A stretch of DNA of 38,595 nucleotides, taken from the NCBI GenBank assembly GCA_022565805.1, contig JAIULZ010000024.1, forward strand, positions 1 to 38,595, given 5' to 3'. The position numbers and the translations under genes are program-made. Under the pieces are notes generated by a model. That model saw only the letters and a list, made by a program, of their open reading frames with translations, did not search any database and was not told where the DNA came from. Position 1 is the stretch's first letter; the number at the start of each line of letters is the position of its first letter. Shown here piece after piece: positions 18,531 to 25,221 of this stretch. This DNA is from Balneolales bacterium. GTDB lineage: Bacteria > Bacteroidota > Rhodothermia > Balneolales > Cyclonatronaceae.

Positions 18531-19040
18531 CTCACGGTATTGTAACTTTGCCTGAAATTCCAAATCATAGGTTATTTCCAAAACCAGCATTCTGTTTTTT
18601 AGTTAAGTATGTCGTCTTGGAGAATTACAAGAATTAGTTTTGCAGGAAAAGCCACAGATTTAGCTTACAGTTACTGAATTAAAAAAACTTTATGTTTCTT
18701 GTTTGCAACTGGTTCGTAATTTGGGTAACGTATAACACTTAAGTTTCTAAATATAGTTTAGTAAAAGTTTTGTTATAACGTTTATTTAAAGGATTTTACG
18801 TGAAAAGGATTTATGCTGGAAGAGATTCCATGTTTGAGTTTTAAATGTGCATTAAAAATAACCGGCTTATGAGTTTGCATTAATGCATTAGCGTGGAGTA
18901 ATCAAACATATTTACGGTCAAGCAAAGCTACCCTCAAAAGGAAAAATCTGCACCAGGGTTTAGTCGGGTGGTACTTTCTAAACTGAGAATCTTTCTCTGC
19001 CGGCACTTAATTACATATATACTATATATCAATTGATATC
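18531..19040. other. Intergenic region, 510 bases
   Basis: This region separates the efflux operon from the chaperone-usher-like genes. I see no gene or strong terminator. AACGTATAAC (about 18727-18736) and GTTATAACGTT (18772-18782) form an imperfect inverted repeat. The AT-rich run ATATATACTATATATC just before 19041 may hold the promoter of the secreted beta-rich protein. Confidence 0.35.
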
Positions 19041-19571
19041 ATGAAAACTTTACATTCTGCTGGAGTTCTTATTTTCATTTCAATGATGTTTGCTGCATCT
19101 GTAAATGCACAGAGCGTTTCGGCCACGGCAAACATAAATTTTACGCTTCAGGAGCAAATTTCTGTAGTTAACATTTCTGATCTTGAACTCAATTTATTTC
19201 CTGCAACTTCAGATTTCCCGGTACTCGAATATCGCGTAAACCGGAACGGTACGGTAACAGTGCTTAATAATAGCCCGATTGATCGTATCGAGGTAGTCTC
19301 TATACCTGTTTTTACAGTAACTGGGGCAGCGGGAAGAGCTATCGATATTCTTTCGAACCTAAGTGCCGGCAGTACAATCACTTTTGATGGCGGAAATATT
19401 GTTTTCTCACAGTTTCTTTTAGATGGCTCGGTAACTCTGCCGGGCGGGCTTGGCGACGGGGATACTGATCTCGATATAGCCGTTGGCTTTGATATACTTT
19501 ACAATAATAGCGCTAACCCGGGTAATTATTCCGAATCGAACGCAATTGAAATTACTGTAAGCTATCAGTAG
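19041..19571 (+). CDS. Secreted beta-rich protein, candidate fibre subunit (DUF4402-like)
   Basis: A 176-residue protein with a clear signal peptide (hydrophobic residues 8-21, cleavage likely after VNA at 23). The mature part (about 153 residues) has no Cys and is full of alternating strands. It starts SVSATANINFTLQEQISVVNISDLEL and ends AIEITVSYQ. Size, composition and ending recall small pilin-like proteins of the DUF4402/spore-coat-U type that are assembled by chaperone-usher systems. The match is by general appearance, not a diagnostic motif. Its position, 151 bases before a PapD-like chaperone and an usher-like gene on the same strand, is the strongest argument that it is the exported subunit. 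Alternatively it is an unrelated secreted beta-sandwich protein. Confidence 0.55.
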   Translation: MKTLHSAGVLIFISMMFAASVNAQSVSATANINFTLQEQISVVNISDLELNLFPATSDFPVLEYRVNRNGTVTVLNNSPIDRIEVVSIPVFTVTGAAGRAIDILSNLSAGSTITFDGGNIVFSQFLLDGSVTLPGGLGDGDTDLDIAVGFDILYNNSANPGNYSESNAIEITVSYQ

Positions 19572-19722
19572 TCTTTCTGTTACCGGATAATCCGTTTTTG
19601 GGGTTTACGTATATTAAATTAGTTATTTTTTTGAGGATTGCGGCTGCGGCTTAAGCATTTATAATGTCCGAAATCTACAGTTACATAACAGGTATCTTTA
19701 AATTGTACAGACAAAAGCTTTT

Positions 19723-20598
19723 ATGCAACCGGGTTATAAATTTAAGGCGGCAAAACCATCACCAATCGTGCTATGCCTGCTTGTTTTAATTAGCTTTGCG
19801 GTATTTTATTCCATCCCATCATCTGTATTAGCTCAGTCGGGAGAGTTCCGTGTCTATCCTACACGGCTAATGCTGGATCAGCAGCAGTTTGGCTCACTTA
19901 ACGTAACAAACACTAGTTCGCATAGTCAGCGATATCGCCTCGAAATTATTTACCTTGCTTTCGACGAAAGGGGGGCGCTGAGGCCCGTTGATCCCGATAT
20001 TGCTCAAACGCAGGGCTGGGCATTAGGTCCATTAATGCGTTTTGGCCCACGACAATTCGTTTTAGGGCCCGGAGAAAGCCAAACAATTCGTATAGCTGCC
20101 AGAATGAATACTGCTGCTGAGGGCGAGTACAGGGCACATGTTCATATTCGGAATATGGGTACACCAACAGCCGATTCTGAAAATACCGAAGAATCCGAGA
20201 ATCAGATTGGATTGAGTCTTAATATTCGACAGAATATTGCGGTGCCGGTATTTGCACGTAAAGGAGATCTTGGAGAGCCTGAAATTACGCTTCTAAGTTC
20301 AAGATATATTAAAGACGACCATACAGAAAAAAATGGCCTTGAACTATTGTTCGGTTTCGACTCAAACAGGTCTGTAGTGGGGAATCTTACCGTACACCGA
20401 CTTTCTGCATTGCAGCTAAATCTAAAACCCGATGCAGCCGTCTCTCAAATTGCCATGTATCCCGACAGCCCGCTTCGGCGTATCTTTTTACCTTTCGAGA
20501 AAAGTCCTGAGCAGCAAAGGGTTGTAATTAGATATTCCGGCGAAGAAAACGAAACAGAGGTAATCTGGCTTGAGCAGGAAATTGAGCTCCACCCCTGA
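19723..20598 (+). CDS. PapD-like periplasmic chaperone
   Basis: A 291-residue protein with a signal peptide (hydrophobic core about 15-32, cleavage near VLA at 37). The mature N-terminus SGEFRVYPTRLMLDQQQFGSLNVTN, then YRLEIIYLAFDERG and FGPRQFVLGPGESQTIRIAAR, follows the pilus-chaperone first-domain pattern: a strand carrying a conserved Arg, then the long exposed strand, then the LGPGESQ turn. A second domain continues to the C-terminus. Chaperones of this fold donate a strand to unfinished fibre subunits in the periplasm and deliver them to the usher. It is longer than classical PapD (about 220 mature residues), with an acidic insert near 145-155 (TADSENTEESEN). It lies between the candidate subunit and the usher-like gene. 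Confidence 0.75.
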   Translation: MQPGYKFKAAKPSPIVLCLLVLISFAVFYSIPSSVLAQSGEFRVYPTRLMLDQQQFGSLNVTNTSSHSQRYRLEIIYLAFDERGALRPVDPDIAQTQGWALGPLMRFGPRQFVLGPGESQTIRIAARMNTAAEGEYRAHVHIRNMGTPTADSENTEESENQIGLSLNIRQNIAVPVFARKGDLGEPEITLLSSRYIKDDHTEKNGLELLFGFDSNRSVVGNLTVHRLSALQLNLKPDAAVSQIAMYPDSPLRRIFLPFEKSPEQQRVVIRYSGEENETEVIWLEQEIELHP

Positions 20599-20776
20599 TT
20601 TTAAATCTCATTTGCTGTTTCTTTAACTGTTTTTCCAAGTAGCGGTATTTCCGCTCTATAATGTATTTACCTGCTTGCAAACTGTTTTTAAACATATTAT
20701 ATGGAGCAAAGCTGTATGCCAAACTGCTTGTTTGGCAAGGCTCATAAATGTAAAAGCAGGTAGCTGGCCGGCTCTA

Positions 20777-23700
20777 TTGGGAGTAGCTGGCGGTCTCATC
20801 AAACCCTCTGTCTCGTTTTTTAGAGCATCGCACACAACACGTATAGCTGCTGCCTTACTTTTTTCCCTTCTTTTTAGTAGTAATCTTTTTGCCAGCCCGA
20901 CCTTTTTATTTCCTGATGAAAATAAACCTGCGGTACAAGATGATGATCTTACTTCGCTTACCAAAGAATATAGCTTCGAAGATATTATAATTGTTGAAGT
21001 TACCGACCGGGGTAGAGGCCTGAGCGGCTTTGTCGAATTTGTAAGTGCAGATGGGGTTTTACTTACGGATCTGAATCAATTTCTTGAATTTGCCGGACAT
21101 AATTTTGGAGTGACTGAGCAGGGAGTAGTTCAGTTAGACTTAAACGGCAACGGATGGATTCGCATAAATACAACTCTATTCGAAATCGAAACTCCGGATC
21201 TTACTGAAGCTCTGGACGAGTTTGAATTTTTGCGCATTGATCGCCAGTTTTTTCTTTCGATGGAGCGTTTGGCTAACACACTAGCCATTACTTACGAGTT
21301 CAATCCGAATACGCTACGACTCCGAATGAGTATAGATGGCGCTTCTCTGAACGGTAATGGCAATGGCAATGGCAATGGATTTAGAAGCAGTAATGGAAGC
21401 AGTAACGGAAATGGATATGGAAACGGGTTTAGACCGGTCTCTTCCCGTACTACTGTATCTAACAGCCAGCAAATGTTGGAAGCTGCAGTGATGGTAGAAA
21501 ATCCCTATTCTCTTATCGATTTTCCCTTTATAGACATCAGTGCGACCTCATCTGTGTTTGGTCGCGGTGATGAAACCCGCCAAGACTGGAGGTACTTTGC
21601 GCGCGGAAGCGGTGATCTGTTATGGTTAAATTCTGAATGGAGCATTAGCGGCAGAGAAGGCAGGCCCGCAGATTTTGTGCGGTTCAGGGCCGGGCGCAGA
21701 AGCCTCGAGCCAGACCTGCTTGGCATAGCAGCGACCCACTTTTATGTTGGTGATTTAAATACTAGTAGCCGTAGTGCGGTTGCGAACAGCAGGCAGGGGC
21801 GTGGGGTTGAGGTTGGTAATCAGCCGCTTGAATTCAGCTCAGATTTTGCACCAACGCAAATACCAGTAAACGTAGCCCCCGGGGCACAGGTAGAGCTTTA
21901 CCAAAATGGAGAGTTAATAGCTGTAGGTAACGCAGATCCGCAAACCGGTTTCTTTGAGTTTACCGACGTAATGCTCGTCTATGGTCAGAATATTTTCCAG
22001 CTGGTGTCGATTGATCAGGCAGGGCAAATGCAGCAAAAAAGTATACGAAGGTATGTAGGCCGCCGGCAGCAACGACCGGGACAACTTCAGTACAGGTTTT
22101 CGGCTATACAGCAGAACACCCCTTTATTCGAATTACACGAACGGTCTAACATACAGAACCTGGATGGTGAGGCAAGGCTGTTTGGTGAGTTTGATCTGGG
22201 TTTAAACCGAACTTTTTCTCTTAACAGCTGGTCTTACTCTTTACCATTGCCAGACGGCCGGCATAATTACCTTGCGGGTGGGGTAAGCGCGTCTTTTGCA
22301 TTAGCCGACCTCAGGGCTTCATATATCCATGATTTTAACAGTGGTTTCGCCTTACAAGGCGCGGGCCGGTTCAGGCTTGGGCGCTGGAGCGTTGCTGCAG
22401 AGCACACCCGGATGTTTGATGATTTTAGCTCGGAAGCCGATTTTGCATTTGTCCGAAATTACAGCTCTATAAGTAATTTTAGTCTTAGTGGCCGGTTGCC
22501 ATTTGGTATTCAAAACCAGATAAATGTGCAGGACTTTCGCTTTGATGAAGGCCGATCTATAACTCGGGTTCAGCATAGACTTAGCCGTAATATATTGGGT
22601 CTGTTTGTATCGCACAACCTATCGCTAATTTACAACGAAACTTCAGCAGGACCGCAGTTCGGGCGGGGGCAGTTGTTAATGCGCTATCGAAATGCAGCAT
22701 TTCAGCCTAAAGCTCGCGCTGGCTATCTTTTACGCCCACGTACAGAGCTTTCGGATGCGTCAGCCGGTTTCGACTGGCAACTTAATCGCAACACGTATGT
22801 ATCGGCCGAGGCGGGTTATCAATTCTCATTTATCGATAATGCATTTTTCCAGGCTGGGTTCACCCGAAGCTTTGGTTATTTCAATTTAAGTATAAACGGG
22901 AACTACACATTCGATAATTTCTACTACACTGGCATCACCCTGTCTACAGGGCTGGTTCGCAACCCAACAAGAGGTCGGCTGCAATTCTCGGAACGCTCTG
23001 TGAGTCAGCTATCTGGTATCTCAGGCGACCTTTATCACGATATTCCACATACGAATCCCGGCAGGGCAATGGTACACGATGCTTCGCTGGAGTTTTTCCC
23101 GGCAGTATCGTCTACATCAACACAAGCAGAGGGGGGGCGTGTTTTTCGTTCAGATGTGCGTGCATGGAGCAGGCAAACGGTGCGCATAAATCCATCAACT
23201 GTAGAAGATCCCGCGCTGCAAATTCCTTCAGAGAGCATCAGCTATCTAAGCCGGCCGGGTAAAATATTCAGGCAGGATTTCAGAATAGACGTGGTTTCTG
23301 AAATTGAGGGGCTCATTCTCGCAGAAGGCAAGCCGGAGAGTAAACCGGCTCCGGTTAGAGGCGTGCCGGTAACCTTACAGCGGCAGGAAGACAACGAGCG
23401 TATGGTGCAGTTCTCGGATTACGACGGGTATTTTCTGTTTGATGGTATCAAAACAGGAACGTACCTGTTAACTGTACCGCAGGAGTGGCTTGATCGCAAC
23501 AAGTTTGAGCTCACAGAAGAAAATGAGATCTATATGGTTTATGGAGACGGTGAGCTCTTTCTGGATCAGAATTTGATTTTAAGACCGGTAGTTACAAAGG
23601 CTGACCGGGAGGAAATGCTTGCCGAAGAGCAGCGGTTTCGCCAAGAGTTAAGGGATTCAGGCATGTGGTTGCCGTGCGACGAAATGCCCGGATTTGAGCC

Positions 23701-24877
23701 CGCATATTTCGGGTTCAACTCTTACACACTGGATGAAGAAGCCCGCAAAATTGTGCAGCGACATGCTCAATTTCTCAATGAATATCCACAAATTACGGTT
23801 TTGGTGGAGGGCTTTGCCGATTCTGTTGGCTATGAAGAATACAACGAAAGATTATCGCGAAGAAGAGCCTGGGCGATGCAGGCGGCGCTAACAGAATTTG
23901 GCGTTCATCCCGATCGCATACTGGTGCGTGGCAGGGGAGAAGTAAGCGAAGAATGCCCTACGGGAGAAGAAACTGCAGCAGGTTGTGCGGGCCATCGTAA
24001 AGCCGCATCGCTAACCTACACTGTATTTGAATCGGTTCGGATAGAAAACGGTTCTACTTTTGTAACAGATCCTAATCTGGAAAAACTGGCCCGAAATCTA
24101 TCGCTTCTAAAGGCGTGTCAAGAGCTTAAGGTACGTGTTGAAACACTGGCTGCCGGCGGCATAATGAATGCACAGGATTACGCGTCACTGCTGGATCAGC
24201 AGCTACGCCTCCGGCAGTTTTATGCAGATCAGGGCATATCGGCAGATCGTATTTCTGTTGAGGGGCCGAATACATCCCGTTTCGAGTTTATAGATGCGGC
24301 GCAGGCATCAGCCAGGGCTCAAGATGAAATACTCACCACCGATGCCGGATTGCCCTCGCTGGCATCGCGTGAAAGAACAAGGCCAATGTTTACGGTTCAG
24401 ATTGGCTCATCTGCTACTCTGGCTGGAGCGGGCAGAATGTTGGGCAACCTGCAGCCAAAAGTGCAAACGGCTCTCAAAATAGTTTTTAAACCGGAGCAGC
24501 AAGTTTATGCGATAGTGTTAGATATGGAAGGAACATCTTTTCAGGCAGAACGATTTTTGTATTCTATGAGAACAGCATCAGACTTTCGGGGAGTGTTTTT
24601 GGTACCCACAAGCACATTCGAAACGGTAACACTGGCAGAAGGTACGCAGCACGAAATGAGGTATGGTGCCTTTAGTTCCCAAAAAACTGCAAAAAAAATA
24701 GCTGAACAGATTAATGCGTTTGCGAGCGTAAAAGCGGAGGTAAAAACCGACGAAACCGGGGAACTTTATCGCATTGTTTCGGAACGTGCGGTAGATAATC
24801 AGCTTGGACAACAACTTATGGCAGAGGCGCGGCAAAACGGATATTATGACATCTTACTGATTACAATCCGGGACTAA
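20777..24877 (+). CDS. Usher-like outer-membrane protein fused to OmpA-like and SPOR-like domains
   Basis: The open frame runs from 20675, but no ATG is available. TTG 20777 gives a normal-length signal peptide (IAAALLFSLLFSSNLFA), so it is preferred; numbering below counts from 20675. Residues about 103-222 form a globular N-terminal domain (IIVEVTDRGRGLSGFVEF, DGVLLTDLNQFLEFAGH) like that of alternate-type ushers. An Asn/Gly linker follows (226-251). Residues about 280-800 are strand-rich like a pore, containing a small plug-like module (IPVNVAPGAQVELYQNGELIAVG, 396-418). Residues about 880-980 look like a carboxypeptidase-regulatory-type fold (FSDYDGYFLFDGIKTGTYLLTV). A first OmpA-like domain (about 1005-1115) has YFGFNSYTLDEEA and VEGFADSVGYEEYNERLSRRRA. 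A second, degenerate one follows (to about 1215), then two SPOR-like segments (FTVQIGSS near 1238, MRYGAFSS near 1328). It probably exports the subunit and anchors to peptidoglycan. Confidence 0.7.
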   Translation: MGVAGGLIKPSVSFFRASHTTRIAAALLFSLLFSSNLFASPTFLFPDENKPAVQDDDLTSLTKEYSFEDIIIVEVTDRGRGLSGFVEFVSADGVLLTDLNQFLEFAGHNFGVTEQGVVQLDLNGNGWIRINTTLFEIETPDLTEALDEFEFLRIDRQFFLSMERLANTLAITYEFNPNTLRLRMSIDGASLNGNGNGNGNGFRSSNGSSNGNGYGNGFRPVSSRTTVSNSQQMLEAAVMVENPYSLIDFPFIDISATSSVFGRGDETRQDWRYFARGSGDLLWLNSEWSISGREGRPADFVRFRAGRRSLEPDLLGIAATHFYVGDLNTSSRSAVANSRQGRGVEVGNQPLEFSSDFAPTQIPVNVAPGAQVELYQNGELIAVGNADPQTGFFEFTDVMLVYGQNIFQLVSIDQAGQMQQKSIRRYVGRRQQRPGQLQYRFSAIQQNTPLFELHERSNIQNLDGEARLFGEFDLGLNRTFSLNSWSYSLPLPDGRHNYLAGGVSASFALADLRASYIHDFNSGFALQGAGRFRLGRWSVAAEHTRMFDDFSSEADFAFVRNYSSISNFSLSGRLPFGIQNQINVQDFRFDEGRSITRVQHRLSRNILGLFVSHNLSLIYNETSAGPQFGRGQLLMRYRNAAFQPKARAGYLLRPRTELSDASAGFDWQLNRNTYVSAEAGYQFSFIDNAFFQAGFTRSFGYFNLSINGNYTFDNFYYTGITLSTGLVRNPTRGRLQFSERSVSQLSGISGDLYHDIPHTNPGRAMVHDASLEFFPAVSSTSTQAEGGRVFRSDVRAWSRQTVRINPSTVEDPALQIPSESISYLSRPGKIFRQDFRIDVVSEIEGLILAEGKPESKPAPVRGVPVTLQRQEDNERMVQFSDYDGYFLFDGIKTGTYLLTVPQEWLDRNKFELTEENEIYMVYGDGELFLDQNLILRPVVTKADREEMLAEEQRFRQELRDSGMWLPCDEMPGFEPAYFGFNSYTLDEEARKIVQRHAQFLNEYPQITVLVEGFADSVGYEEYNERLSRRRAWAMQAALTEFGVHPDRILVRGRGEVSEECPTGEETAAGCAGHRKAASLTYTVFESVRIENGSTFVTDPNLEKLARNLSLLKACQELKVRVETLAAGGIMNAQDYASLLDQQLRLRQFYADQGISADRISVEGPNTSRFEFIDAAQASARAQDEILTTDAGLPSLASRERTRPMFTVQIGSSATLAGAGRMLGNLQPKVQTALKIVFKPEQQVYAIVLDMEGTSFQAERFLYSMRTASDFRGVFLVPTSTFETVTLAEGTQHEMRYGAFSSQKTAKKIAEQINAFASVKAEVKTDETGELYRIVSERAVDNQLGQQLMAEARQNGYYDILLITIRD
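21353..21430 (+). repeat. Asn-Gly coding repeat in the usher-like gene
   Basis: Tandem GGCAAT/GGTAAT units (21353-21379) and a looser continuation encode an Asn/Gly/Ser-rich stretch between the N-terminal domain and the barrel-like region. It is in frame and would make a flexible, uncharged linker. Such repeats can change in length by slippage in six-base steps without shifting the frame. Confidence 0.85.
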
Positions 24878-25221
24878 AGCCACAGTAGGTGTATTTTTAA
24901 AAAATGTTGTTATGACACCTAATATTCAGCAAAAATTTACATTTGGCTTATCATTTTAAAGCGTAATGGGTTACACGCCCCATATGAATTTAAAGTGAAG
25001 AAAATGAAAAAGAGGGAACCTTTTTTATGGGAAATATGGGTGGAACGTCTTATTTTAGCATTCCCTTGTTCAGCAGGGTTTATACTATTTAGACTAGTTT
25101 CAAATAGATTACAGGCTCGTTTGAGGCACTCATTCGTTCGTATATTTGCCAGCTGATATCTATTTTCTACTATTATTTTGTCCTTCAGGCTAACTTGTCT
25201 TAACGAAAAGCTTTCATTCTA
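24878..25221. other. Intergenic region before the respiratory operon, 344 bases
   Basis: A 7-bp stem TAGGTGT (24886-24892) / ACACCTA (24915-24921) follows the usher gene and may weakly stop it; the loop is 22 bases and there is no good T-run. A 50-codon open frame starts at ATG 25004 and ends at 25156, preceded by GTGAAG; its product has one hydrophobic stretch, but there is no other support for it. TTATTTTG near 25176-25183 is one mismatch from the Bacteroidota -7 element, and a TTTG lies upstream at 25145-25148, so the operon promoter may be here. The spacing is slightly long. Confidence 0.4.

Follow-up and report, generated by a model that had tools for sequence, protein, structure and literature searches.

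A divergent chaperone-usher gene set with a putative wall-binding usher tail in a Balneolales genome

Results

The locus and its genes

The window analysed here is a stretch of 38,595 nucleotides from a Balneolales genome (GenBank assembly GCA_022565805.1, contig JAIULZ010000024.1), in which three open reading frames lie on the same strand, at the positions given by the original prediction, between genes for an HlyD-type adaptor and an RND pump upstream and a cytochrome/molybdopterin cluster resembling alternative complex III downstream (Table 1). The trio is found again, identically ordered, in a different genus of the family (locus L021), and the three are therefore real genes. The original prediction read them as a secreted beta-rich protein, a PapD-like chaperone and an usher-like protein, and this assignment held in profile comparisons and predicted structures. 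The small first protein carries a signal peptide. The first start of the large third frame is a TTG, the true start being uncertain and probably slightly downstream; at window 20675-20900 this frame has no ATG start, and only TTG candidates precede its signal peptide.

Table 1. Features of the chaperone-usher locus in the window.
Feature	Position	Strand	Size or basis
Fibre subunit, secreted, pilin-like, divergent DUF4402 relative	19041..19571	+	176 aa
Predicted N-terminal donor strand, subunit residues 24-36, QSVSATANINFTL	19110..19148	+	Family alternation; outside the FimG-aligned Ig-like core
PapD-like periplasmic chaperone (very likely)	19723..20598	+	291 aa; profile-profile match
Putative G1 donor strand and following K/R-x-G motif, chaperone residues 159-180	20197..20262	+	Alternation in 25-sequence alignment
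Usher with putative peptidoglycan-binding tail	20675..24877	+	1400 aa; Pfam, profile-profile comparison, structure model
N-terminal periplasmic domain at usher NTD position	20957..21331	+	Match to E. coli usher NTDs limited to its final 18 columns; low-confidence model there
Predicted barrel, 24 strands	21515..23041	+	DSSP of model, strands counted by hand; VIA-align to FimD 9fw9_D
Plug domain between barrel strands 6 and 7	21842..22012	+	In-register profile alignment with FimD plug; position in model
Usher CTD1 and CTD2	23063..23587	+	hhalign through CTD region; structural alignment; Pfam CarboxypepD_reg/SdrD_B within CTD2
OmpA domain 1, conserved peptidoglycan-binding Asp and Arg	23705..24001	+	PF00691, E 3e-19; alignment with E. 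coli Pal and OmpA
OmpA-like domain 2, degenerate, without Asp and Arg	24038..24334	+	Alignment
SPOR-like repeats	24392..24877	+	PF05036, 24.5-29.7 bits, cut-off 21

Searches of the trio with Pfam and NCBIfam recognised only OmpA, SPOR and a CarboxypepD_reg/SdrD_B-like segment, all in the large protein. No Usher, PapD or pilin model of Pfam matched the window proteins, the chaperone and the subunit received no fitting name from either collection, and a Pfam Usher search of the window's own genome returned nothing; of the HMM searches proposed beforehand, those for OmpA and SPOR were thus positive and that for Usher was not. The identities of chaperone and usher consequently rest on profile-profile comparison and predicted structure. 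Sequence searches of the PDB with the usher, chaperone and subunit profiles did not retrieve any chaperone-usher (CU) protein, which we put down to divergence. That all three proteins are homologous to CU components, and that wall-binding modules are present, is nonetheless shown by computation, and the trio very likely represents a complete, strongly divergent CU set, a judgment resting on profiles and predicted structure.

The usher and its tail

A profile of 10 family ushers matched the eight ushers of E. coli K-12 (hhalign, 98.9%, E 3.8e-17, 630 columns) throughout barrel, plug and C-terminal domains (CTDs), and FimD alone aligned with the family profile in the same register across the plug. 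Some relatives exceed the Pfam Usher cut-off themselves (members in two genomes). A match by chance was ruled out by three controls compared with the usher profile, LptD, FhuA and BamA, which remained at E 0.45, 0.31 and 0.21, respectively. An AlphaFold2 model of residues 75-1000, built without templates, was of moderate confidence (pLDDT 63, pTM 0.47); Foldseek ranked FimD or PapC chains in all positions from 1 to 16 (best E 1.9e-22), and VIA-align superposed model residues 200-895 on residues 132-833 of FimD (9fw9_D) with Z 15.2 over 604 residues, as compared with Z about 12 over at most about 260 residues for unrelated barrels. Profile alignment and predicted structure thus agree on a barrel with a plug between strands 6 and 7, followed by CTD1 and CTD2, and the absence of an usher pore, which would have refuted the original prediction, was not observed. 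The usher N-terminal domain (NTD), which in known systems recruits chaperone-subunit complexes, gave no match to the E. coli usher NTDs beyond 18 columns, in a region where the model is of low confidence.

The alignment reaches the end of FimD CTD2 at model residue 895, that is usher residue 969, and the Pfam CarboxypepD_reg/SdrD_B match lies at usher residues 884-934. This segment is therefore the ordinary usher CTD2 and no added module, so that the earlier description of a carboxypeptidase-regulatory-type fold as an extra part failed. What exceeds an ordinary usher is the tail, made of an OmpA domain, a degenerate OmpA-like domain and SPOR. The original prediction had contrasted this protein with known ushers ending in two small domains without wall modules, and the window usher indeed possesses CTD1 and CTD2 plus the extra tail; its claim of OmpA-like domains held in part, as specified below, and that of SPOR-like segments held, with Pfam scores above cut-off.

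The Pfam OmpA match covers residues 1011-1090. In Pal and OmpA an Asp and an Arg bind diaminopimelate, and alignment with these proteins indicated that domain 1 retains both residues and that domain 2 has lost them; in the L021 usher both are apparently kept in the second OmpA domain, as judged by eye. The SPOR match spans only 33 residues. Since usher CTDs are periplasmic, the tail is in the compartment from which it can reach the wall, and it likely binds peptidoglycan, an inference from conserved domains and residues without binding data.

The C-terminus was complete in 30 ushers, that of the window and those of 29 named loci. In 14 of them Pfam recognised OmpA, SPOR or LysM in the tail, nine had a TPR tail and seven no recognised tail; SPOR was the most frequent type in the family. 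The presence of many relatives with TPR or no tail indicates that a wall-binding tail is not essential to the mechanism. The occurrence of three distinct wall-binding folds at one position may reflect repeated selection for wall attachment. An Ignavibacteriales usher (L087:5705-6532) ends in SPOR and LysM, the latter being the third wall-binding fold at the same position, and in a Paludibacter usher (L101:10431-12734) the tail is 768 aa long and consists of many SPOR-like repeats.

The chaperone

The profile of 25 family chaperones matched 11 chaperones of E. coli K-12 (hhalign, 95.2%, E 2.6e-8) in the N-terminal domain only, the second domain being unmatched in this comparison, and controls against ushers and pilins were much weaker (E 0.53 and 0.0072). 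PapD_N was weakly matched in three of 11 related chaperones by Pfam. Positions 162, 164 and 166, which align with the PapD G1 strand, are hydrophobic in 92-100% of the 25 sequences and flanked by polar positions; the strand-donating face whose absence would have counted against the original prediction is thus represented, in the sequence alignment, by an alternating donor-strand motif. The window, L021 and the Bacteroidales/Cytophagales types retain the equivalent of PapD Arg8 (Arg48), which most Balneolales lack, while no certain candidate for Lys112 was identified. On these grounds, which are limited to profiles of the N-terminal domain and include no structure model, we consider the protein very likely to be a PapD-like chaperone.

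Arg48 and an IxVPxxxR segment at residues 172-179 are features that the window chaperone shares with Bacteroidales/Cytophagales chaperones and not with most of those of Balneolales. This likeness would fit a horizontal transfer of the cassette, which is a possibility.

The subunit

Pfam assigned nine of 11 operon subunits of relatives to DUF4402, a family without assigned function that was not mentioned in the open-access literature we searched; the window subunit was too divergent to match it. In its AlphaFold2 model (pLDDT 77.6), residues 37-176 resemble CU pilins, the best VIA-align match being FimG (Z 6.9, 115 of 132 residues), and CU subunits (FimG, FimA, PapA, PapE, PapG, Caf1, CsuE, Csu, CupE or similar) held the first 15 ranks and made up 42 of the 50 matches listed. 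Taken alone the fold match is moderate, with all Z values below 8 and a non-significant Foldseek E of 0.12, and the profile comparison with E. coli pilins reached only 51% (E 1.5e-4, hhalign).

Two further lines of evidence are independent of the fold match. The predicted donor strand forms the N-terminal 13 residues of the mature protein, where hydrophobic residues alternate family-wide with a score of 106, against a mean of 44 and a maximum of 68 in 2000 shuffles. Nearly all family members end in a strand whose penultimate residue is Tyr (26-27 of 30), and the alignment of E. coli pilins likewise ends with a near-invariant Tyr. The subunit is therefore likely to adopt a pilin-type Ig-like fold with an N-terminal donor strand and a penultimate Tyr, as predicted by model and family pattern. 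It contains no Cys.

Distribution and genomic context

Of the 129 genomes searched in the order, 70 contain relatives of the usher at E <= 1e-5; in a phylum-wide sample of 296 genomes the number is 64, at E <= 1e-10. The subunit-chaperone-usher order is kept across the order-wide family, and loci of this kind span Balneolales, Ignavibacteria, Bacteroidales, Cytophagales and Saprospiraceae, with named examples in Balneolaceae, Gracilimonas, Balneola, Saprospiraceae, Ignavibacteriales, Melioribacter, Bacteroidales, Porphyromonas, Paludibacter, Litoribacter and Anditalea. No relatives were found in the viral contigs searched, and a search across the class for the archaic pilin family SCPU gave sub-threshold matches only.

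In the window exactly three CU genes separate the RND gene from the cytochrome gene ActA (compared region, window 18531-25221). In six related genomes (L129-L134), four of the same genus and two of other genera of the family, these two genes lie side by side, a few hundred bases apart and without the cassette. The neighbourhood survey thus revealed both a conserved operon and the absence of the cassette from the same site in six relatives. The intergenic DNA immediately 5' of ActA remains alignable between the window and these relatives. The L021 trio (usher about 34-36% identical over its full length, chaperone 31%, subunit 29%) is instead located between metal ATPase-like and electron-transfer flavoprotein-like genes, named by eye. 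Being a discrete insert between RND and ActA, and having another context in L021, the three genes form a unit, and the comparison of contexts shows the trio to be a compact, self-contained cassette. Its G+C content is not different, and a search of its borders for direct repeats or attachment marks returned only 9-base matches. Gain in the window and loss in the six relatives are both possible, and neither can be excluded.

TPR-tailed relatives

A FliG-like gene follows the usher in all nine loci with a TPR-tailed usher (L072, L073, L074, L075, L076, L079, L081, L085 and L098; L074:10849-15853 is an example), and it is usually followed by a gene for a separate TPR protein. Pfam identified the FliG middle and C-terminal domains (FliG_M/FliG_C) in the two FliG-like proteins tested; by eye, the N-terminal half is FliF/YscJ-like. 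MotA-like and MotB-like genes occur in the six loci with enough sequence, and the MotB-like proteins (two tested by Pfam) contain MotB_plug, OmpA and SPOR, their C-terminus resembling the SPOR tails of Balneolales ushers. None of six SPOR-tailed Balneolales ushers examined was accompanied by FliG/Mot-like genes. FliG-like relatives adjoin ushers in the window's own genus (G002, G004 and G005) and are absent from the window genome. The TPR-tailed loci thus resemble CU operons equipped with counterparts of flagellar rotor and stator components. Wall binding seems to be supplied either in cis, by the usher tail, or in trans, as an inference from these arrangements.

Discussion

Comparison with known systems

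By the features examined, the trio very likely belongs to the chaperone-usher pathway, NTD binding and donor-strand exchange being inferred. It shares with type 1 and P pili (FimC/FimD/FimA; PapD/PapC/PapA) the gene set and the logic of its order, the 24-strand barrel with a plug between strands 6 and 7, CTD1 and CTD2, the PapD-like chaperone, and a pilin-like subunit with a donor-strand N-terminus and penultimate Tyr. It differs from them in lying below Pfam recognition, in its unmatched usher NTD, in its single subunit gene and in the predicted wall-binding tail after CTD2, a feature that known ushers are, to our knowledge, not reported to have. The compact gene set recalls Caf1M/Caf1A/Caf1, and the subunit model resembles the subunits of Caf1 and of the archaic Csu/CupE systems as well as FimG; unlike these systems, the window belongs to a different phylum, its subunit is devoid of Cys and its usher bears OmpA and SPOR.

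Ushers with an added functional domain have a precedent in the P-usher CupB3 of Pseudomonas aeruginosa (cited in PMC4793230, ref. 74), whose addition serves TpsA secretion rather than wall binding. A wall-binding module holding the translocator of a surface adhesin is found in the autotransporter YeeJ, which binds peptidoglycan (PMC5595812), and in TpgA, by NCBIfam model name a wall-binding partner of trimeric autotransporters; both are, however, autotransporter systems and not CU systems, and TpgA acts in trans. In the open-access literature searched, which leaves out many subscription journals, neither ushers with OmpA, SPOR or peptidoglycan binding nor ushers of Bacteroidota were found. The original prediction, which knew of no described system with this architecture, is thus not contradicted within that literature, but the architecture is not unique to this locus, as it recurs with different wall modules across Bacteroidota, Balneolota and Ignavibacteria.

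Proposed mechanism and alternatives

The best explanation, which we regard as likely, is a minimal CU secretion system with a wall-tethered usher, its fibre assembly, wall binding and mechanical role being inferred. The steps are deduced from anatomy, without expression, binding or microscopy data. Subunit and chaperone would be exported by Sec, and the PapD-like chaperone would donate its G1 strand to the subunit and anchor the subunit C-terminus. The usher would then take the chaperone-subunit complex, and the subunit would cross the 24-strand pore as the plug moves aside, donor-strand exchange joining the subunits as the alternating N-terminal extension of one fills the groove of the next. 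Because the locus has a single subunit gene and lacks a gene for an adhesin, the product would most likely be a homopolymeric fibre or a capsule-like coat. Beyond CTD2, OmpA and SPOR may fasten the periplasmic face of the pore to peptidoglycan, which would fix the base of the fibre and pass a pulling force to the wall. The surface fibre and wall-fixed pore of the original prediction are therefore supported as an interpretation, fibre formation and wall binding remaining inferred.

A first alternative accepts a true CU system and assigns to the OmpA/SPOR tail mainly the placement of the usher, for instance at the septum, without mechanical load. This remains possible: SPOR is the commonest tail in the usher family, and SPOR domains recognise denuded glycan at division sites. 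On the other hand OmpA and LysM, which are general wall binders, occupy the same position in relatives, and the first OmpA domain of the window keeps its binding residues. We therefore lean, with limited confidence and by inference, towards anchoring rather than placement as the purpose of the tail.

In a second alternative single subunits or short oligomers would be exported and displayed, the usher being a simple wall-held translocator and no pilus being formed. A cassette with one subunit gene and without an adhesin or terminator gene is in agreement with it; however, the family-wide alternating N-terminal extension corresponds to the polymerisation part of known CU pilins, and homopolymers made from one subunit gene are known (Caf1), which renders this possibility unlikely. 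A third alternative, in which the large protein would be a porin or outer-membrane anchor carrying OmpA/SPOR and the small proteins would have no relation to it, could draw on the lack of Pfam Usher or PapD matches in the window but is largely refuted and all but excluded by the profile and structural matches to ushers, including plug and CTDs, with negative controls, and by an operon with PapD-like and pilin-like proteins conserved over several orders and classes.

Significance of the proposed wall-tethered usher

Nearly all knowledge of chaperone-usher pili comes from Proteobacteria, and no usher is known to be attached to the wall. The locus differs in its predicted wall-binding usher tail and in belonging to a lineage outside Proteobacteria that current family models mostly miss. 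With the tethered CU system as the preferred reading, the locus and its relatives point to a large group of bacteria, mostly environmental and in part host-associated, that may build CU fibres from unrecognised genes with the pore tied to the wall, and they make testable how the envelope carries a pulling force on a pilus.

A bolder reading, which at present we would not quite favour, is that Bacteroidota, Balneolota and Ignavibacteria possess a CU class of their own in which the linkage of usher and wall is a working part, supplied in cis (OmpA, SPOR, LysM) or in trans (TPR tail with a FliG-like and MotA/MotB-like complex). If it were true, the trans form would be a machine perhaps driven or moved by proton-motive force, by which no CU system is known to be powered. 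The FliG/MotA/MotB-linked relatives make testable whether an usher can couple to an energy-using motor.

Directly upstream of the CU genes, two loci (L072:3-4424 and L084:1076-4912) encode giant proteins that combine Invasin_D3 with a type IX secretion tail (Por_Secre_tail) and may possibly act as surface partners of these systems.
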